DNA of 20,995 nucleotides, from the IMG/VR virus record IMGVR_UViG_3300031919_000022, positions 1-20,995 of that record, one strand, 5' to 3'. Both the position numbers and the translations under genes were made by a program. Source of the DNA: a virus. The notes beneath the pieces are model-generated. The model was given only the letters and a program-made list of their open reading frames with translations, made no database searches and was not told the DNA's origin. Positions 3,516 through 11,867 of the stretch are shown in pieces; within the stretch, counting starts at the first letter, position 1, and each line of letters starts with the position of its first letter.

Positions 3516-4268
3516 CTATTGTGCGGCCAAACAATCACGCAAAGTACGACGCGTTTTTGCGTACGTTTCTTTGGAAACATTTTGTCTTCCAATATCTTCC
3601 AAAATGCATCGTAGAGCCACTCTTTGTGCGGGCGTCTTCACTTTTTCCGCCACGTCTATCATTGTGTCGATGAAGTGTTCCTGCTCCCAGGCGAAAAGGG
3701 ATACGTGATATTCTGTGGTGGCACATTCCACCGAATATTCCTCTCCATTTTCTCCCATATACGTGGAAGAAACTTCCTGGATATTTTTATACGTTTTGAC
3801 AATATATGCCAATATACGTAGTGCGACGGTGAATGAAGCTCGAAAATACAGCGATACGATGTATTTTCGATATTCGCGACTGGTCCGCATCCGCACGCCA
3901 GCCCCAGCCAAGGAGTGATTTCTACGCAGGAATTCCATCGCCAAGACGTAGGATTCCTGTTTCACGTCCTCATATTGGAGATATTGTTCCAGGCCCTGAA
4001 GCACAGGCGGCTTTGTACGCATATATTCTTGACAGACCTTCCCTGTGCCGTCCGTATATTCTACCACGCGGTTTTTCCGTGTTTTGACGCGGTTGTTCAG
4101 TACTCTATGCACTATTTTTTCTACCAATTTTTCCTGGTTGAATACGTCGCCCATATATTCTATACGCGATATATTCTCCTTTTGGCTGTTGTGATACCGT
4201 TTCCACTGACCTGTTATACGTGTTTGCATTTCCTCGGTTATTATTTTTTCGCTTGTAATTTTTAACAT
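3516..4268 (-). CDS. Unrecognised 250-residue protein, possibly a divergent sigma-like factor
   Basis: The start at ATG 4268 is supported by AGGAGAG about 9 bases upstream. The protein is basic and mostly helical, with no signal peptide or membrane segment. Two stretches faintly resemble RNA polymerase sigma factors. LQYEDVKQESYVLAMEFL (about 97-114) resembles the acidic region-2 helix (D-x-x-QE-x-hydrophobic). TPAQRVALRCIL through VSKETYAKTRRTLRDCL (about 212-247) resembles region 4, though the middle of the helix-turn-helix is short. This is weak and could be chance; I found no catalytic motif. Its upstream DNA has a cluster of GTCTCA/TGAGAC operator sites and its 3' end a very strong terminator, so it is separately controlled. 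Its DNA is visibly richer in GC than the neighbouring genes, suggesting a different origin. Confidence 0.6.
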   Translation of the reverse strand: MLKITSEKIITEEMQTRITGQWKRYHNSQKENISRIEYMGDVFNQEKLVEKIVHRVLNNRVKTRKNRVVEYTDGTGKVCQEYMRTKPPVLQGLEQYLQYEDVKQESYVLAMEFLRRNHSLAGAGVRMRTSREYRKYIVSLYFRASFTVALRILAYIVKTYKNIQEVSSTYMGENGEEYSVECATTEYHVSLFAWEQEHFIDTMIDVAEKVKTPAQRVALRCILEDIGRQNVSKETYAKTRRTLRDCLAAQ

Positions 4269-4301
4269 TTTAATATCTCTCCTTTTTTGTTATTTTTTGG
4301 T

Positions 4302-4371
4302 GTCTCATTAGTGAGACATGTCTCATTTTTAAGACATGTCGCATTTTTAAGACATGTCTCATTAGTGAGAC
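4302..4371. promoter_or_regulatory. Operator cluster upstream of the 250-residue gene
   Basis: The dyad GTCTCATTAGTGAGAC occurs identically at 4302-4317 and 4356-4371. Between them AGACATGTCKCATTTTTA repeats with an 18-base period (4314, 4332, 4350), each unit containing the palindrome GACATGTC. The cluster ends about 34 bases before ATG 4268, so it lies in the 5' untranslated region or over the promoter. The GTCTCA/TGAGAC core recurs many times at 5062-5477, implying one shared binding protein. Confidence 0.65.
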
Positions 4372-4436: not shown

Positions 4437-4654
4437 ACTGTAGCACTGTATTACTGTCGTACTTTCTTACTTTCCTACTTTCTTACTTTAACACTTTCCT
4501 ACTTTCTTACTTTAACACTTTCCTACTTTAACACTTTCCTACTTTAACACTTTCCTACTTTCTTACTTTCTTACTTTCCTACTTTAGCACTTTAACACTT
4601 TAGCACTTTAACACTGTAGTACTGTAACACTTTAACACGGTAAAGCACTGTATT
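4437..4654. repeat. Octamer tandem array (27 units)
   Basis: From 4437 the sequence reads as 25 octamers in perfect phase to 4636, then a 10-base unit and one more octamer. Units are ACTTTCCT, ACTTTCTT, ACTTTAAC and ACTTTAGC, with ACTG variants at both ends. ACTK is fixed apart from ACGG in the 10-base unit, while the second half varies. The period of 8 is not a multiple of three and no SD precedes any frame, so it is not coding. Such short direct repeats occur in origins and partition or replication-protein sites, but no specific role is shown. Confidence 0.85.
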
Positions 4655-4747
4655 TATTTATTTTTTTCCTGTATAAATACTTCGATAGCATGTCCAATTT
4701 TCCTTTTTTCCATACTCAAGTATATTGTATACACATCGACACATTGT

Positions 4748-4889
4748 GACAGTGTGGTTGTCATGCTGTGTTTCAATTCCTCATAGGTAAACTAAAAACT
4801 GTATTTTCATAATCAGACATAGAAATCATCTCCTCGTTTCAATTCCTCATAGGTCAGCTAAAAACTCGACAGTGTGGCTGTCATGCTGT
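4748..4889. repeat. 22-bp direct repeats flanking the mini-CRISPR
   Basis: The segments 4748-4769 and 4868-4889 differ at one base and start GACAGTGTGG. In the right copy GACAG-TGTGG-CTGTC is a perfect hairpin; in the left copy the last pair is G-T. The left copy abuts the first CRISPR repeat and the right copy lies two bases after the second. The order is hairpin, repeat, spacer, repeat, hairpin, so the CRISPR unit is bracketed by a direct duplication. Confidence 0.8.
4770..4865 (-). CRISPR. Phage-borne mini-CRISPR: two 30-bp repeats, one 36-bp spacer
   Basis: Repeats at 4770-4799 and 4836-4865 begin GTTTCAATTCCTCATAGGT and end CTAAAAAC, matching at 28 of 30 positions. The spacer is 4800-4835. 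On the minus strand each repeat ends GGAATTGAAAC, giving the ATTGAAAC 5' handle known for type I-B and some type III crRNAs, so I assign the minus strand as crRNA sense. Repeat and spacer lengths fit those systems. No cas gene is in the window, so any function must rely on host Cas proteins. Possible roles are a guide against a competing phage, or an RNA anti-CRISPR decoy of the kind described for solitary repeat units in phages. The structure is clear; the role is not. Confidence 0.8.
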
Positions 4890-4908
4890 TAAGTAAAAAT
4901 ACTTGACA
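4887..4908 (+). repeat. Exact 22-bp repeat shared with the late promoter, copy 1
   Basis: This segment is identical to 9395-9416 and contains the dyad AAGTA-AAAA-TACTT followed by TTGACA. At 9395 the TTGACA is a promoter -35 box; here no -10 box follows at 16-18 bases. It directly adjoins the right hairpin repeat of the mini-CRISPR. It may be a regulator binding site. Confidence 0.75.
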
Positions 4909-4931
4909 GGGGTGGGGTAGCCAGACCGCGA

Positions 4932-4964
4932 CGCTGTGTCATTGCTTGTTAAGCATACACAGCG
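4932..4964. other. Stable hairpin near the mini-CRISPR
   Basis: CGCTGTGT (4932-4939) pairs perfectly with ACACAGCG (4957-4964), and GCTT/AAGC pair again inside. There is no T run on either side, so it is not an ordinary terminator. The surrounding 4909-4940 stretch is unusually GC-rich for this region. Confidence 0.5.
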
Positions 4965-5119
4965 ATTTCTCACAATTTTTTGTAAAATAGCTTTCCTTTT
5001 TTCCTGCAAGTATTTCCGCACTACACTTTTCAACAGGGAGAAGGATTTTAAGACATTCCATTGAGACATTTGAGACATTTGTGACATTCTTAAATTAGAA
5101 ATGTCTCAACAAATGTCAC

Positions 5120-5152
5120 AAAAAAAATCCCTCAACCATGCGGGTTAGAAGG
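5120..5152 (-). terminator. Possible terminator, leftward
   Basis: The stem 5129-5152 (CCCTCAACC paired with GGTTAGAAGG) has one bulge and one mismatch and is followed on the minus strand by eight T (A run 5120-5127). It resembles the better terminator at 5383-5423. Confidence 0.45.
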
Positions 5153-5156
5153 TCGC

Positions 5157-5308
5157 TGAGACAAAAGTGACATTTATTTTTATAAAAAACATATATTATA
5201 TAAGGCGTACACACACAAATAATTTTTAATCTTTCCCTGTTATTTTTGTGTGTGTATGTCCTCTTAGGATTTAATATATATCTCTAAAATTATGTCACTT
5301 TTGTCTCA
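5157..5308. other. Nested inverted repeat, candidate replication origin
   Basis: The outer arms TGAGACAAAAGTGACAT (5157-5173) and its exact complement (5292-5308) are 17 bp without mismatch. The inner arms TACACACACAAATAA (5208-5222) and TTATTTTTGTGTGTGTA (5240-5256) pair with two extra T. AT-only stretches with ATATATTA/TAATATAT lie between. The 152-bp near-symmetrical layout, flanking binding-site repeats, AT-rich core and lack of genes fit an origin. A centromere-like or regulatory site is possible. Confidence 0.5.
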
Positions 5309-5382
5309 AAGACCCCTCAGCCCAGTCACAGCAAGGGTTTCAGTGAGACATTCCAGATTTTGACAATGTCACAAAGAAAATC

Positions 5383-5423
5383 AAAAAAAACCCTCTAACC
5401 CAAGCTGGGCAAGGGCTAGAGGG
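5383..5423 (-). terminator. Intrinsic terminator of the replication operon
   Basis: CCCTCTAGCCC and GGGTTAGAGGG (5423-5413, 5401-5391) form an 11-bp stem with one G-U pair, followed by eight T on the minus strand (A run 5383-5390). It is the first strong terminator after the last leftward gene (stop 5571). Confidence 0.85.
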
Positions 5424-5570
5424 CTGTGACAAAATGTTTTAAGAAATGTCACAAAAAAATGTCACAAAAATGTCTCACACATAGGAAATATTATTAAACA
5501 TCACAGTATTTTATCAAATACGGACTTTTCGACATTTCTGTCGGAAAGTACAGAATATATAAAGAGTATT

Positions 5571-6054: not shown

Positions 6055-8862
6055 TTAAAATTCTAAGGTATCATCATCATTAGCAGCACAGATTTCCTGT
6101 AAATCATCATTATTGATAGCCCTATAATTGAGCATTAGACAACGAAGTTGATTGCCTGTTGACTGTAAACGTGCCCTGACGTTGTTCTTTACGAAGAAGG
6201 GTTCTTTCTTTATGTAATCCAGAAGCACAGTACGTTTAATATCAGCATCAGGATAGTTTTTAACCCATGTATCATATACACCTTTAAACCATAGTAATAT
6301 TGTGTTGTTTTCAATCTTATAATGTTTACCATTGAGTAATTTACCATCTAACATTAGTACAGTCATGTCAGAGAAAAACTTTGACACTGTGTGGTCGCTT
6401 TCAGTTATTTCTTTAGTTTCTGTAGCTTTGCTACTTAACCAGTTAATAAAATCTAACTTATCTTTCTCTGTTAAAACATGCTCGAACTCGTGGAGAAATG
6501 CTCCTGCAAACACAGATACGTTTTTAGCAAGACGTCCATCTATGTCTTGTGACATTAATCTGTCTTGTATGTAATCTATTTTAGCTAATAACTTCTCTGA
6601 ACCTTCACGTTGTTTCTTAGTAGCGAAGTGTAACCCTAAAGATGGAAAGTGTTGAACTAGGTCGAGCATATGTGTTAATGCGTTGTTGTCCCTCTCGTAT
6701 GCAGAAATTTGAATATTACAGCAACGCGAAAATACAGCGTTATTATCAGGAGTATCCTCTCCACTAAGTAGTAAAAACCCTCTGATTTTTTCTGCTCTAA
6801 CACCAAAACCTGACTTAATACCTTTATCAGCACCTTGCCTGTTATACGCACCGAGCAAAAATTCATCGCGGTGTTTAATATCTTTAAGATTGTTTTTATA
6901 ATCGTCATACCACAGCGGTAACGAGGAATAGTACCCTAATTTTCTGGTCATACTAACTATAGAGGGCATGGCGAAGTTCTTACCATCTATATGTGGAAAC
7001 CCGTAAGCAGACATTAACCACCGGGCAAGGTAGGTCTTTCCGCTATTACGTTTACCATTTATAAAGAAGATAGGAAACGATTTATCGCCTTTATGATTGT
7101 AGATTGCGTTACTGTGCCATCCAGCCACTATAAAACCTAGTGAAAGCCATGCATTAAATGTACCTAAGTTGGTTTTCAATGTGTAAGCAACATCTTTTAA
7201 ATAATCATCAGTTATTTCTTCAATTACGTCTGGTTTGGTTGGCATGTATGTCTCATCATTATCATCTACAATGTTAAGATTACGTACCATGTAGCTCTTA
7301 TCATCTAAAGTGATAATGTTATTATCATCGCAAGTTATAATCTGCCCTTTATTATCTATACCATAACGTCCCATTATCCAAATATCGTTTACTTGTCCTA
7401 TGTGGTCAGGTGAGTGAACGATATTTTCTTCTTGTTTAAGTAGAATTTCGTTAAGTGCTATTAGGTCTTTAAAATCACCTTTGAATATATAGTTACCTGC
7501 TTTTTTACACTCAGCCATGAAATCCATAGGCCTAGTAAGTGTCTCTGCTGTGAAAATAACTTGCCTACTGATTTGCCCCCGTTCATTTTCTAATTTACAT
7601 ATTCTAACATGATTACCATCAGCTTCAATAGTATGGAGTAGATGAATAACAAAATTAGAAATACAGACTTCTGCGATACCTTCATTAGTATGAACTGTTT
7701 TATAATAACATTTGTTCTTCTGGTATATATCAGCGTCAGCATCATTTTTTTCTTGATTACACTGGTTATATCTCTTATATGCGTTATTATATGCTTTAGT
7801 TATTATAGTTTTACTTATTTTAAGGCTAGCTTTTAGTGTGTCTACGAAAAGCATAATCTTAACTTCATCCTGTAAAGCTAAGAATGTGTAATACCATGCA
7901 TCATATTTACTAAGTATATCAGGTGTTTCTTTAGCTGTTGCTATAAAGGTTTTAGGTGTTGCAGGAATATAGGTTTGTGTGGTAAAATATTTATATAGAA
8001 CTTCCTTATTTCCTCCACAATTATACATATAATAATCACTAACATCATTAAATCTTGTAGGTAAAGATATAGTATATAATTTATCTGGAAACGTAGCTGC
8101 AATTGTTTTTAAAAGTTTTAGCCCTGCTTTATCTTGGTCAGGAACAGCTATTATTTTATTAAATTTAGTAAGTAAATTACCTAAATTTTCTGTACTGGTT
8201 TCCCATGCAGTAGCTCCGGGGACACCAATAGCTTGTAATCCGGCTTGTATAGCAGTTAAAGCATCTGTTTCACCTTCAAATATATAAAGATAATCATTAT
8301 TATAATTTTTAAGGAGGTCTAAACCATATATGGTATTACTACCTTCCGTAAATGTATATTTATTAGTACCTTCAAATTTAAGACGTTTTTTAACAGCTAA
8401 TATATCCCCATCTGCTCCGTAAAATGGTATAACAACACCTTTAATAATTTCACCATTTCGCACGTGTTTATGATTATCTATACCACGTGATTTTAAAAAT
8501 TCTATATCGAAACCTTTAAATTCAGCAAAATTTTCTAATGTAACAATGTTAGGGTATTCTAACTTAAAAATTTTTCTAATATCTTTAACAGCGTTCTCTA
8601 TACTATCGAATAACCCCATCTCTACTAGTAATTTAGGTGCAGTACCACCTATACCACATGCACCATAACAAACCCAATCCCACCCTTGTCCTTTGGAGGT
8701 TTTGTCATAGATTGCTAAACTAGTACCTTTAGTTTCTTTATGAATGGGGCACTTAGTTAAATAGACGTATTTGCCTTGTTTTATAAAGTCATTATCGTTA
8801 TAGTTTAGGTAATATTTCATTACGTCTATTAGTGATAAATTGTTTATTAGCAATCGTGACAT
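6055..8862 (-). CDS. Primase-helicase (zinc-binding, Toprim and P-loop ATPase)
   Basis: This 935-residue protein probably makes RNA primers and unwinds DNA at the phage fork. The start at ATG 8862 has AAGGAGG 8 bases upstream. Domain order: a DnaG/gp4-type zinc-binding region with CPIH (38-41) and C65, C69; a Toprim domain with EGETD (196-200) and DQDKAG (242-247), whose acidic residues bind metal; a long middle region I cannot assign; then a P-loop ATPase with GKRNSGKT (603-610), a Walker-B-like LPLWYDDY (648-655) and LLLSGEDTP (697-705). The ATPase looks more like the superfamily 3/AAA+ type of phage and plasmid primase-helicases than the hexameric DnaB type, but I am unsure of that. It is the second gene of the leftward operon, 3 bases after the ribbon-helix-helix-like gene. 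Confidence 0.88.
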   Translation of the reverse strand: MSRLLINNLSLIDVMKYYLNYNDNDFIKQGKYVYLTKCPIHKETKGTSLAIYDKTSKGQGWDWVCYGACGIGGTAPKLLVEMGLFDSIENAVKDIRKIFKLEYPNIVTLENFAEFKGFDIEFLKSRGIDNHKHVRNGEIIKGVVIPFYGADGDILAVKKRLKFEGTNKYTFTEGSNTIYGLDLLKNYNNDYLYIFEGETDALTAIQAGLQAIGVPGATAWETSTENLGNLLTKFNKIIAVPDQDKAGLKLLKTIAATFPDKLYTISLPTRFNDVSDYYMYNCGGNKEVLYKYFTTQTYIPATPKTFIATAKETPDILSKYDAWYYTFLALQDEVKIMLFVDTLKASLKISKTIITKAYNNAYKRYNQCNQEKNDADADIYQKNKCYYKTVHTNEGIAEVCISNFVIHLLHTIEADGNHVRICKLENERGQISRQVIFTAETLTRPMDFMAECKKAGNYIFKGDFKDLIALNEILLKQEENIVHSPDHIGQVNDIWIMGRYGIDNKGQIITCDDNNIITLDDKSYMVRNLNIVDDNDETYMPTKPDVIEEITDDYLKDVAYTLKTNLGTFNAWLSLGFIVAGWHSNAIYNHKGDKSFPIFFINGKRNSGKTYLARWLMSAYGFPHIDGKNFAMPSIVSMTRKLGYYSSLPLWYDDYKNNLKDIKHRDEFLLGAYNRQGADKGIKSGFGVRAEKIRGFLLLSGEDTPDNNAVFSRCCNIQISAYERDNNALTHMLDLVQHFPSLGLHFATKKQREGSEKLLAKIDYIQDRLMSQDIDGRLAKNVSVFAGAFLHEFEHVLTEKDKLDFINWLSSKATETKEITESDHTVSKFFSDMTVLMLDGKLLNGKHYKIENNTILLWFKGVYDTWVKNYPDADIKRTVLLDYIKKEPFFVKNNVRARLQSTGNQLRCLMLNYRAINNDDLQEICAANDDDTLEF

Positions 8863-8865
8863 TAA

Positions 8866-9036
8866 TTATTCCTCCTTTTTAGTGCTATATTGCTTAATCG
8901 CTAATTTTAAACCCTCTTCTAACATTTGTCTCCAAGAAATGTCATAGTCAATACAGATTTTTCTTGCTTCTTTGTAAATTGTGCTGTTAATCCAGTTGTT
9001 GATTTTACTTAAACCTTTAAATTTTTCGTTAGCCAT
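8866..9036 (-). CDS. Small ribbon-helix-helix-like DNA-binding protein
   Basis: From ATG 9036 (AAAGG 10 bases upstream) the product is 56 residues, MANEKFKGLSKINNWINSTI...; an ATG at 9054 would add six residues. A short N-terminal segment followed by two helices, about NSTIYKEARKICIDYDIS and WRQMLEEGLKLAIKQY, fits the ribbon-helix-helix (Arc/CopG) architecture of small dimeric repressors, although the strand is not typical. It is the first gene of the leftward replication operon. Its promoter is 46 bases upstream, so it may autoregulate that operon or act on the operator repeats further left. The family assignment is by shape, not by a diagnostic motif. Confidence 0.55.
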   Translation of the reverse strand: MANEKFKGLSKINNWINSTIYKEARKICIDYDISWRQMLEEGLKLAIKQYSTKKEE

Positions 9037-9081
9037 ATTTTCACAACCTTTCATTAAGTTTTCCTTTTTGCCGACAATCTT

Positions 9082-9110
9082 AGTATAACCATTTTTTGAT
9101 TTTATGTCAA
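9082..9110 (-). promoter_or_regulatory. Consensus sigma70 promoter for the leftward replication operon
   Basis: On the minus strand TTGACA (9110-9105), a 17-base spacer and TATACT (9087-9082) give a perfect -35 and a 5/6 -10. Transcription would start near 9075, just before the ribbon-helix-helix-like gene, and the host polymerase should recognise it at once after infection. Confidence 0.85.
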
Positions 9111-9126
9111 GGGAGTTGATGGAAAA

Positions 9127-9414
9127 ATGTCCAAAAATTTTTATTTAAGGATTTATAAGGATGATGAGCCTGTAAATCGTAATCAATTTATGAAGCACCG
9201 TAAGGTTTTTGTGCAATTTAATCCTAAATTTTTAGAAAAAATTGTCATTGATGAAATGATTAAAAAGTTACCTTTAAAATTCAGACAAGTTATAATTTTA
9301 CATGTTATTAAAGGTTATCCAGTTAAACAAATAGCTAAATATTTAGAAGTTCACAGAAGCACAGTGCATCGGAGATTAATAAAAGCATTAGATATGTTAA
9401 GTAAAAATACTTGA
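9127..9414 (+). CDS. Sigma region 4-like helix-turn-helix regulator, 95 residues
   Basis: The C-terminal half, from KLPLKFRQVIILHVIKGYPV through KQIAKYLEVHRSTVHRRLIK (about 47-86), matches sigma-70 region 4 and related activators: a leucine-proline start, an R-x-V-hydrophobic helix, then the helix-turn-helix with recognition helix HRSTVHRRL. The N-terminal 45 residues are unrecognised and no region 2 is present, so it is not a complete sigma factor. It is the first rightward gene and its stop codon overlaps the -35 box of the promoter that serves the packaging and structural genes. By analogy with small phage late activators of the ArpU/RinA kind, it may switch on late transcription; that is inference from position and fold. 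GGGAG lies 11 bases before the ATG. Confidence 0.7.
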   Translation: MSKNFYLRIYKDDEPVNRNQFMKHRKVFVQFNPKFLEKIVIDEMIKKLPLKFRQVIILHVIKGYPVKQIAKYLEVHRSTVHRRLIKALDMLSKNT

Positions 9415-9416
9415 CA
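9395..9416 (+). repeat. Exact 22-bp repeat overlapping the late promoter, copy 2
   Basis: Identical to 4887-4908. It contains AAGTA-AAAA-TACTT and ends with the TTGACA of the promoter at 9411-9440, while also encoding the last residues of the regulator gene. A protein bound here would cover the -35 box. Confidence 0.75.
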
Positions 9417-9440
9417 ATTTGCAACAAAAATTGGTATAAT
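9411..9440 (+). promoter_or_regulatory. Consensus promoter for packaging and structural genes
   Basis: TTGACA (9411-9416), an 18-base spacer and TATAAT (9435-9440) are full consensus boxes. The -35 overlaps the TGA of the upstream regulator gene and the end of the 22-bp repeat. The start point would be near 9447, about 34 bases before the first gene. Confidence 0.85.
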
Positions 9441-9480
9441 AAGGTAAGATGGAACAAGTGTGTTATAAAGGGTGTTTTTA

Positions 9481-9912
9481 GTGCCATACAAAGATTATGA
9501 AAAACAAAAAGCTAGTTGGCGTAGAACAAAGAAAAGATTTAGAGCTAAATATCCTGAATTAAATAAACAAAGGCAAGAGAAATATATTGAAGATTTTGTT
9601 AAAAGACACAATATAATAACATACCATAAATATAGGGTAGCAAAATTAAAAGACCCTAATTATACTCCCACTAAAACACAGTTGGATAGAATCGAAAAAG
9701 TAGCTAAATTATACGTAGATGTAGGTTACGTTGATGCTGTGTTACTTAAAGAAAGATATAATCTTACTACACATCAAGTAAAATATTTAACAATGACGAA
9801 ATGTTTTGAGGAAAAAGTTCAAATGTTTCGTAATATTGAATATACGAAAGCGTTAGTAGTGTTATTAGCTGAAGTACGGAGGAAATTTTATGAGCAACTT
9901 AAATCCACCTAG
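9481..9912 (+). CDS. Small basic protein of unknown function before terminase
   Basis: I choose GTG 9481 because AAAGGG lies 7 bases upstream; a GTG at 9472 would overlap that SD. The 143-residue product begins MPYKDYEKQKASWRRTKKRF and is lysine/arginine-rich at the N-terminus with predicted helices throughout. The stretch VGYVDAVLLKERYNLTTHQVKYL (about residues 79-101) could form a helix-turn-helix, but no diagnostic motif is present. Its 3' end overlaps the small terminase gene by 23 bases, so the two are translated together. Its place, just before TerS, suggests a DNA-binding role in packaging or late control. This is weak inference. Confidence 0.75.
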   Translation: MPYKDYEKQKASWRRTKKRFRAKYPELNKQRQEKYIEDFVKRHNIITYHKYRVAKLKDPNYTPTKTQLDRIEKVAKLYVDVGYVDAVLLKERYNLTTHQVKYLTMTKCFEEKVQMFRNIEYTKALVVLLAEVRRKFYEQLKST

Positions 9913-10420
9913 ATTAGCTCTTAATGTGGACGGATTAAAAGTAAATAAACGGATGATTGAGGTAGCTCAACAGATTGTCTTAACAGGTAGTATCAAAACC
10001 GCTGCGAAAGTTGTTGGTGTACCATCTGCTACTGTAAATGGATGGCTAGCTAATAAAGAAGATTTTAAACAATTAGTTCAACAATTTACAGATGCTATGC
10101 TTATTGAAATGAAATCTGAACTGGTAGGAGTGTCGCGCGAAGCACTTGAAGTAATACGTTTAATAATGGTAGACCCTGGCATTGACCCTGCACAAAGATT
10201 AAAAGCAGCACAGGATATTTTAAGTAGAGCGGGGCTTAATGCAGAGAAAAAACAACAAATTGATGTTAATAATAATTATAATATTTTTTCACAAATGGAT
10301 GATGATGAACTAGATAAATTAGCCAATATAGATTTTAAGGAAGTGATAGATGTTGAGCCGAGTGACGAAGGAAAAGATAGCTCTGGCAAAGATGGAGAAG
10401 TTAAGGCGAACAGCGTATAA
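9890..10420 (+). CDS. terS: Terminase small subunit
   Basis: This is a 176-residue protein with a GGAGG SD 7 bases before the ATG. The N-terminal region MIEVAQQIVLTGSIKTAAKV through VGVPSATVNGWLANKEDF (about 22-59) is the helix-turn-helix used by small terminases to bind the packaging site. A helical middle (MKSELVGVSREALEVIRLIM, PAQRLKAAQDILSRAGL) would form the oligomerisation ring. The acidic tail (MDDDELDKLANIDFKEVIDV onward) probably contacts the large subunit. The length is typical. It recognises phage DNA and hands it to TerL for packaging into the prohead. It overlaps the preceding gene by 23 bases and TerL by up to 71. Confidence 0.85.
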   Translation: MSNLNPPRLALNVDGLKVNKRMIEVAQQIVLTGSIKTAAKVVGVPSATVNGWLANKEDFKQLVQQFTDAMLIEMKSELVGVSREALEVIRLIMVDPGIDPAQRLKAAQDILSRAGLNAEKKQQIDVNNNYNIFSQMDDDELDKLANIDFKEVIDVEPSDEGKDSSGKDGEVKANSV

Positions 10421-11867
10421 AGACCTCTATTACTTTACAAAATATGTTATGGGGTTTAATTTACTAGAGCCACAACCACACAAAGGCGTCTGTGATTTTC
10501 TTACTAAAGACCCTGATATATTAGATTGGGTAAAAATGTCTCGTGCTGAACGTGCTGCTAAAGCACAACATACTGGTAACATTAAAAAATTACTTATGTT
10601 ACCTAGAGGATGTTTTAAATCTACAATAGCAACAATATCTTTTCCTGTATGGTTACATTGGCATGACCCTAATTTACGAATAATGATAGATAATGAAAAT
10701 TATAAAAACTCTAAGAAATTTTTATCTGAAACAAAAGTTATTCTTACAGGCAATCAATTACTGCAACAACTTGTTGTAGATGAGGATAATGAATTTTTAT
10801 TAGAACCTAATTTTAAAATGCCTGGTGGATTTACAGAAGATGGTATTATTTATAAAAATAGAACAATTCCTGCTAAAGAGCCATCTTTGTTTTGTTCAGG
10901 AGTTGATACAGCTGCTACTGGGCAGCACCCTGATGTAATTATTATGGATGACTTGGTATCAGAACGTAATGTTACTACAGATGACCAGATAAAAAAAGTT
11001 AAACAGCATTACAGATTTGCTTATTCTCTGTTAGAACCCGGTGGATTATTGATTGTTATTGGGACAAGATACCATATGAACGATTTGTATAATGAAATTA
11101 TTGATGATGACACTTTTAAAACTATAATTTGTCCAGCAATTGATGATAAAGGCGAATTATTTTTCCCTACTAGATTAGGTCATAAACGTCTTGCTGAACT
11201 TAAAAAATCACAAGGTCTATACATATTTAATTCACAATATATGTTAAATCCAATCTCTGATGAAAATGCTATTTTTCACCCAGATTGGATTAAATATTAT
11301 ACAGAAGATGATTTAAAAGGTAAAATACTGCATACTTTTATTACAGTAGATTTAGCTATTAGTCAAAAAGAAACAGCAGACTATACAGTTGTGCTAGTAT
11401 CATCTATAGATACTGATAGCAATATATATGTTCGTGAATATGTACGTGAACGTTCCACCCCACAGGAAACTAGTGAGACTATTTTTAGATTAGCATCAAA
11501 ATATAAAAATGAACGTTTACTTAAAGTTGGAGTAGAAAGTGTTGCTTGGCAGAAAGCTATGATTTATTTTTTACGTGATGAAATGCGTAGACGTGGTAAA
11601 TTTATACCATTAGTTGAATTAAAAGCTGATAAAGATAAAGTTAGACGTGCGTATGGTTTTCAACCTTACGTTGAAAATGGCGCATTTTTTATTAAAAAGG
11701 ATATGAAAATTTTATATCAAGAAATGATGGAATTTCCATTAGGTAAACATGATGATACAGTTGACGCTGTTACATATATTCCACAAATAATGCGTAAACC
11801 CAGTCGTGGAAAAAGTCTTGGAGTTGATAGTACGTATGAGCCAAGAAATTCTATTACGGGTTATTAA
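10350..11867 (+). CDS. terL: Terminase large subunit (packaging ATPase and nuclease)
   Basis: This protein translocates DNA into the prohead and cuts the concatemer. Residues are counted from TTG 10350, which has AAGGAAGTG upstream; ATG 10392 is an alternative that removes 14 residues. The ATPase domain has Walker A LPRGCFKST (84-92) and Walker B VIIMDD (196-201). The RNase-H-like nuclease domain has D334 in FITVDLAIS, E396 in VGVESVAW, and D468/D469/D472 in KHDDTVDAV, the usual metal-binding set. The total of 505 residues is normal for podovirus-type TerL. The 5' end overlaps TerS in another frame and the portal gene follows after 13 bases. Confidence 0.93.
   Translation: MLSRVTKEKIALAKMEKLRRTAYKDLYYFTKYVMGFNLLEPQPHKGVCDFLTKDPDILDWVKMSRAERAAKAQHTGNIKKLLMLPRGCFKSTIATISFPVWLHWHDPNLRIMIDNENYKNSKKFLSETKVILTGNQLLQQLVVDEDNEFLLEPNFKMPGGFTEDGIIYKNRTIPAKEPSLFCSGVDTAATGQHPDVIIMDDLVSERNVTTDDQIKKVKQHYRFAYSLLEPGGLLIVIGTRYHMNDLYNEIIDDDTFKTIICPAIDDKGELFFPTRLGHKRLAELKKSQGLYIFNSQYMLNPISDENAIFHPDWIKYYTEDDLKGKILHTFITVDLAISQKETADYTVVLVSSIDTDSNIYVREYVRERSTPQETSETIFRLASKYKNERLLKVGVESVAWQKAMIYFLRDEMRRRGKFIPLVELKADKDKVRRAYGFQPYVENGAFFIKKDMKILYQEMMEFPLGKHDDTVDAVTYIPQIMRKPSRGKSLGVDSTYEPRNSITGY

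Follow-up and report, generated by a model that had tools for sequence, protein, structure and literature searches.

A likely iteron-type replication origin beside a Toprim primase-helicase gene in an uncultured tailed phage lineage, with iterons recoded at their centre base

The window analyzed here is a linear virus record of 20,995 bp and represents a fragment. It comprises a leftward early operon with the gene for a primase-helicase of 935 amino acids (6055..8862, minus strand) and a rightward late operon with terminase, portal, capsid, and tail genes. At the 3′ end of the leftward operon, where the first-pass annotation had placed a gene-free nested inverted repeat as candidate replication origin, positions 5088 to 5570 were indeed devoid of a credible open reading frame. 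A repeat unit with the sequence 5′-TGWGACA-3′ on the reading strand occurs there in approximately 16 copies over 5049–5477; the resulting array of ~430 bp, which had been overlooked earlier, is located 0.6–1.0 kb from the primase-helicase stop codon. Its clustering was far above chance as judged from shuffled sequences. The direct ATGTCWCA sites previously described on both sides were recovered, with 10 copies within 5062–5477; in the entire window, 15 were observed versus 1.8 expected, a number reached in 0 of 100 shuffles.

The left iteron array (5049..5120, mixed orientation) starts with a degenerate TAAGACA near 5049, followed by TGAGACA at 5062 and 5071 and TGTGACA at 5080 on the plus strand (9-bp steps), and by TGAGACA at 5102 and TGTGACA at 5114 on the minus strand. 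A core-proximal iteron pair (5157..5173, plus strand; TGAGACA at 5157 and AGTGACA at 5166) is opposed in orientation to a second pair (5292..5308, minus strand; sites at 5293 and 5302) on the other side of an AT-rich core (5174..5291), a putative unwinding element with an AT content of 76% in its best 100 bp. The right iteron array (5344..5477) contains sites at 5344 (plus), 5367 (minus), 5425 (plus), and 5447, 5460, and 5471 (all minus), giving an overall layout around the core of 6> 2< | 2> 6<. The two core-proximal pairs form the 17-bp outer inverted repeat of the first-pass annotation, which is perfect as claimed, with TGAGACAAAAGTGACAT (5157–5173) being the reverse complement of ATGTCACTTTTGTCTCA (5292–5308). 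It lengthens to 23 nt at 91% identity, and the expectation for a perfect 17-mer dyad within 200 bp was 0.15 in dinucleotide shuffles of the window. The dyad is itself built of iterons, two per side and 9 bp apart, opposed across the core. The inner AC/GT repeat in the core was verified as 12 perfect bp (5208–5219 / 5245–5256), whereas its extension to 15/17 bp was generous; the element is unconserved, with no full copy in the relatives. We take the iteron array as the functional unit; the hairpin or dyad is a consequence of opposed iterons.

A second conserved block (4880..4995) consists of a G-rich stretch followed by GCGATTTCTCACAATTTTTT (minus strand AAAAAATTGTGAGAAATCGC). The block GCGATTTCTCACAATTTTTT adjoins the array in six related phages, including those termed L003, L004, L005, L009, and L018 below, and is degenerate in L019. 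Sites resembling the iterons form another small cluster at 4298..4361, where TGAGACATGTCTCA palindromes lie within the leader of gene 3516–4268 (minus strand); this cluster may be an operator.

Relatives of the phage were gathered by a terminase scan, primase scans, and a genome scan. The expectation that related phages should have the dyad in the same position was borne out: the corresponding stretch is repeat-rich and gene-poor, lies on the 3′ side of the primase-helicase gene, and contains opposed iteron sets about an AT-rich core. Each lineage has its own site at the same place and in the same layout: TGWGACA in the window and L009 (the latter also with TAAGACA), TGTAACT in L003 and L019, GTAAC[CT] in L004, GTTAC[CT] in L005, GGAACA in L013/L014, [GA]AGACA in L017, and GGGACA in L018. 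For each array tested, the count of the leading 7-mer was above the maximum of 300 shuffles, and iterons were present in all nine phages having a clear array. The layout of L018 is identical to that of the window (6> 2< | 2> 6<), and in both a tandem pair spaced by 8–9 bp is closest to the core on both sides; L003 shows 9> 0< | 1> 8<. The distance to the helicase gene is at most ~1 kb in L003, L004, L005, and L013/L014, and ~0.8–3 kb with small genes in between in L009, L019, L017, and L018. No clear array was found in L016, and the GTAGTAA-type array of L078 was hard to align with the others. These results support the reading of the locus as a candidate origin and refine it.

No close cultured relative was found, and phage and plasmid records shared at most ~25% identity with the primase-helicase. 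The last viral scans yielded no new family member, and a search of the phylum of the sole metagenome-assembled genome (MAG) matched returned only that MAG (L019). Because the latter may be mis-binned, no host was inferred. Between the primase-helicase gene and the array of L018, positions 8930–10781 encode an FtsK-like ATPase and a replication-relaxation-like protein, as judged by eye from the translations.

The nearly identical phages L004 and L005 (94.5% identity over 9.7 kb) constitute a natural experiment, with all iterons one base apart. The centre base differs at 11 of 11 L004 sites from L005 and the other site positions at 0 of 44, versus 52 of 358 changed positions in the rest of the region (Fisher 4.7 × 10−10). 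L005 has two extra sites, both with the L005 centre base. Flanking and spacing sequences could be aligned throughout, so that replacement of a block does not account for the difference. The change at all 11 sites points to one trans-acting reader and suggests a joint change of the sites and of a single protein that reads them.

The best candidate for this reader is encoded next to the array. The N-terminal half of the primase-helicase is a DnaG/T7-type Toprim primase, with a DnaG-type zinc ribbon in most relatives. For the AAA+ helicase half, structural matches were obtained with SCCmec Cch (5dgk; Z 22.3, 383 aligned) and with SaPIBov1 Rep (8tch; Z 18.2, aligned 376–927); Pfam DUF927 gave a weak match in one family member only. 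The C-terminal residues 859–912 (6127..6288, minus strand) are predicted to form a winged helix with wing strands at 890–898 and 905–912, for which Foldseek analysis of the isolated domain gave no more than weak winged-helix matches (best E 0.23). This domain is the favored and probable iteron reader.

The primase-helicases of L004 and L005 differ by 25 aligned substitutions and one indel. Five of the 25 substitutions fall into the last 46 residues (890–935; Fisher 0.006, for a range chosen afterwards); residues 892, 903, and 906 (L004 numbering) are those that differ in the wing. In a column scan with the window, L009, L017, and L018 as the xxGAC group, columns 552, 896, and 908 alone (3 of 871 gap-free columns) split the xxGAC phages from the AAC/TAC phages; this correlation is post hoc, as a cysteine had been spotted by eye first, and derives from nine related sequences in a gapped part of the alignment. 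R896 and C908 are located on the two wing strands of the predicted winged helix, and an arginine facing a G site is chemically sensible. Tentatively, the initiator may read the iteron centre base by two wing residues, R896 and C908 going with G and other residues with A or T. Lineages might then rewrite all iterons at the centre base upon a wing change and acquire new replication specificities, perhaps pressed by origin-targeting parasites or competitors; we consider this proposal possible rather than probable. With L004 and L005, a small protein domain and short duplexes suffice to test directly how specificity can shift in concert between an initiator and its numerous dispersed sites.

The skew analysis proposed in the first-pass annotation gave a divided result. 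In the window, the cumulative GC-skew minimum (9,090) coincides with the gene-strand switch and not with the array, whereas in three near-complete relatives the minimum was found ~0–2.3 kb from the region. In L018, the minimum is at 21,139 with the array at 18.8–19.3 kb, and does not coincide with the gene-strand switch at ~13 kb. The L014 minimum is near 0/850 and the array at 42.9–43.4 kb of 43.76 kb, which are near each other only if the contig is circular. In L016, the minimum (24,644) falls within its AT-rich intergenic region and coincides with the gene-strand switch. The skew evidence for an origin is suggestive only.

From position, layout, and conservation, the region 5049–5477 is likely the replication origin of the phage. 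We consider a joint explanation for the observations rather likely, in which the opposed TGWGACA sets flanking the AT-rich core are probably bound by the neighboring primase-helicase through its C-terminal winged helix. By analogy, the opposed sets would load two helicase rings face to face in a self-loading reaction, the AT-rich core would melt, and the fused Toprim primase would start both forks.

An origin of this type, with iterons about an AT-rich core just downstream of the gene for a self-loading helicase, is already known from SaPI and SCCmec, as is the Toprim fusion from P4 (PMC4234260). Both SaPIBov1 Rep and SCCmec Cch are initiators that recognize iterons located immediately 3′ of the gene encoding them. 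The SaPIBov1 Rep and SCCmec Cch/Cch2 systems resemble the phage in an initiator helicase of the same fold, a short-iteron origin directly downstream of the helicase gene, and a C-terminal DNA-binding domain (PMC7581432), which in the phage is a predicted winged helix with residues that covary with the iteron centre base; multiple iterons about an AT-rich core are likewise shared. In SaPI, primases are of the archaeo-eukaryotic type (PMC7581432), whereas the helicase here carries a fused Toprim/DnaG-type primase; the iteron sequence also differs, and the element is a tailed phage that encodes a capsid and terminase of its own.

The fusion of a Toprim primase, a helicase, and a predicted C-terminal DNA-binding domain is of the P4 alpha type, in which a C-terminal winged helix reads the iterons. 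P4 has a distant second iteron array, crr, whereas a single array was found beside the gene here: no second dense array was detected in the 42-kb contig of L018, and the window fragment contained only the small cluster at 4298–4361. P4 alpha likewise combines a fused bacterial-type (Toprim) primase with an iteron origin (PMC4234260), but the helicase half of the phage protein is closest to SaPIBov1 Rep/Cch. Systems of the pRN1/BIP-1 type share an origin 3′ of the primase-helicase gene and a C-terminal winged helix (PMC4234260); unlike the phage, pRN1 relies on an iteron-free stem-loop and has a primase of the archaeo-eukaryotic type. In PLE RepA/origin modules, the DNA-binding domain and the origin covary between relatives, and iteron changes escape the origin-cutting nuclease ICP1 Odn (PMC8263062). 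Such a nuclease escape is one possible driver of iteron recoding; in PLE, however, whole modules are exchanged and the initiator belongs to the RepA_N family, whereas here the flanks are kept and one base per site is changed. Closely related geminiviruses are also reported to differ often in their iterons (PMC12548392). In the literature compared, neither a tailed phage that combines a SaPIBov1-Rep-like helicase with a Toprim primase nor a base-by-base recoding of every origin site was found; the recoding and the wing correlation are new.

The small terminase tracks the motif at a higher rate than the primase-helicase (4 of 138 versus 3 of 871 columns), and the array might be a packaging (pac) site read by this protein, which also changed between L004 and L005 (17 of ~177 residues, including residue 36 in the helix-turn-helix region, a column that tracks the motif across phages as well). 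We regard this as unlikely. The array adjoins a replication gene and is ~4–7 kb away from the terminase genes; the sole GGGACAAA cluster of the L018 contig is at the array, with none near the small-terminase gene; and the presumed recognition helix differs between the window (PSATVNGWL) and L009 (NYNTVNTWL) despite their common iteron. To our knowledge, an AT-rich core between opposed iterons is atypical of pac sites. Of similarly low probability is a reader encoded on the opposite flank of the array, the sigma-like product of gene 3516–4268 (minus strand), with the array being a regulatory or origin region under its control. Iteron-like palindromes do occur in the leader of this gene (4298–4361), a GGGGACATAAGTCCCC dyad precedes the comparable gene of L018 (near 12790), and the GNNAC form resembles ECF sigma −35 elements. 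However, no iterons were seen before the comparable gene in L019, and dense opposed arrays about an AT-rich core are unlike a promoter set; a promoter-like scan gave fewer matches than in shuffles and was uninformative. The sigma-like identity itself was judged by eye, with no Pfam or PHROG match, and the L004 and L005 contigs stop short of this gene. A 95-amino-acid sigma-region-4-like protein is an unlikely specificity setter, being identical in L004 and L005 despite their differing iterons, as is a ribbon-helix-helix protein whose N-terminal strand is identical in these two phages.

That a long hairpin is recognized in place of the iterons, as in the pRN1 origin, a stem-loop 3′ of the primase-helicase gene (PMC4234260), appears highly improbable. 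The single-stranded fold of −32.6 kcal/mol (z −8.7) is far better than in shuffles, but such a hairpin is a by-product of opposed iterons, its inner stem was not found whole in the relatives, and the concerted change includes iterons that lie beyond the hairpin as well as those within it; moreover, all nine phages with a clear array have iterons. We give almost no weight to another cis element, such as a terminator or a recombination cluster, with no role as origin. GC-rich hairpins are present among the iterons, and five terminator-like sites were counted versus 0.7 expected from shuffles; such an element leaves unexplained the motif-specific concerted change and the opposed array about an AT-rich core in nine phages.

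The iteron array marks where replication probably begins in an uncultured phage lineage. For metagenomic phages, the results suggest searching 3′ of primase-helicase genes for the top over-represented short word, opposed about an AT-rich core.

Some further features were observed in the window and in a relative. The primase-helicase of L079 (7992–10430) is 39% identical to that of the window in its N-terminal part, and its C-terminal half is apparently unrelated; the tblastn match ends at residue 361, and a TTGACACA-type repeat array lies downstream. A domain thus appears to have been swapped, and the motif is a different one. Low-complexity repeats of the CTTTAACAC / GTAAAGC type extend over 4440–4660 of the window, and similar words are found on the same array side in L004, L005, L019, and L079. 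Positions 4770–4865 contain two CRISPR-DR2 repeats (Rfam RF01315) with one 36-nt spacer, a phage-borne mini-CRISPR array flanked by 22-nt repeats, GACAGTGTGG[TC]TGTCATGCTGT. Viral contigs contained no exact copy of the spacer, nor did the loci compared contain a near match; mini-arrays carried by viruses are already known (PMC6858448). At 1353–2405, an amidoligase gene contains inserted DnaJ-like cysteine repeats.
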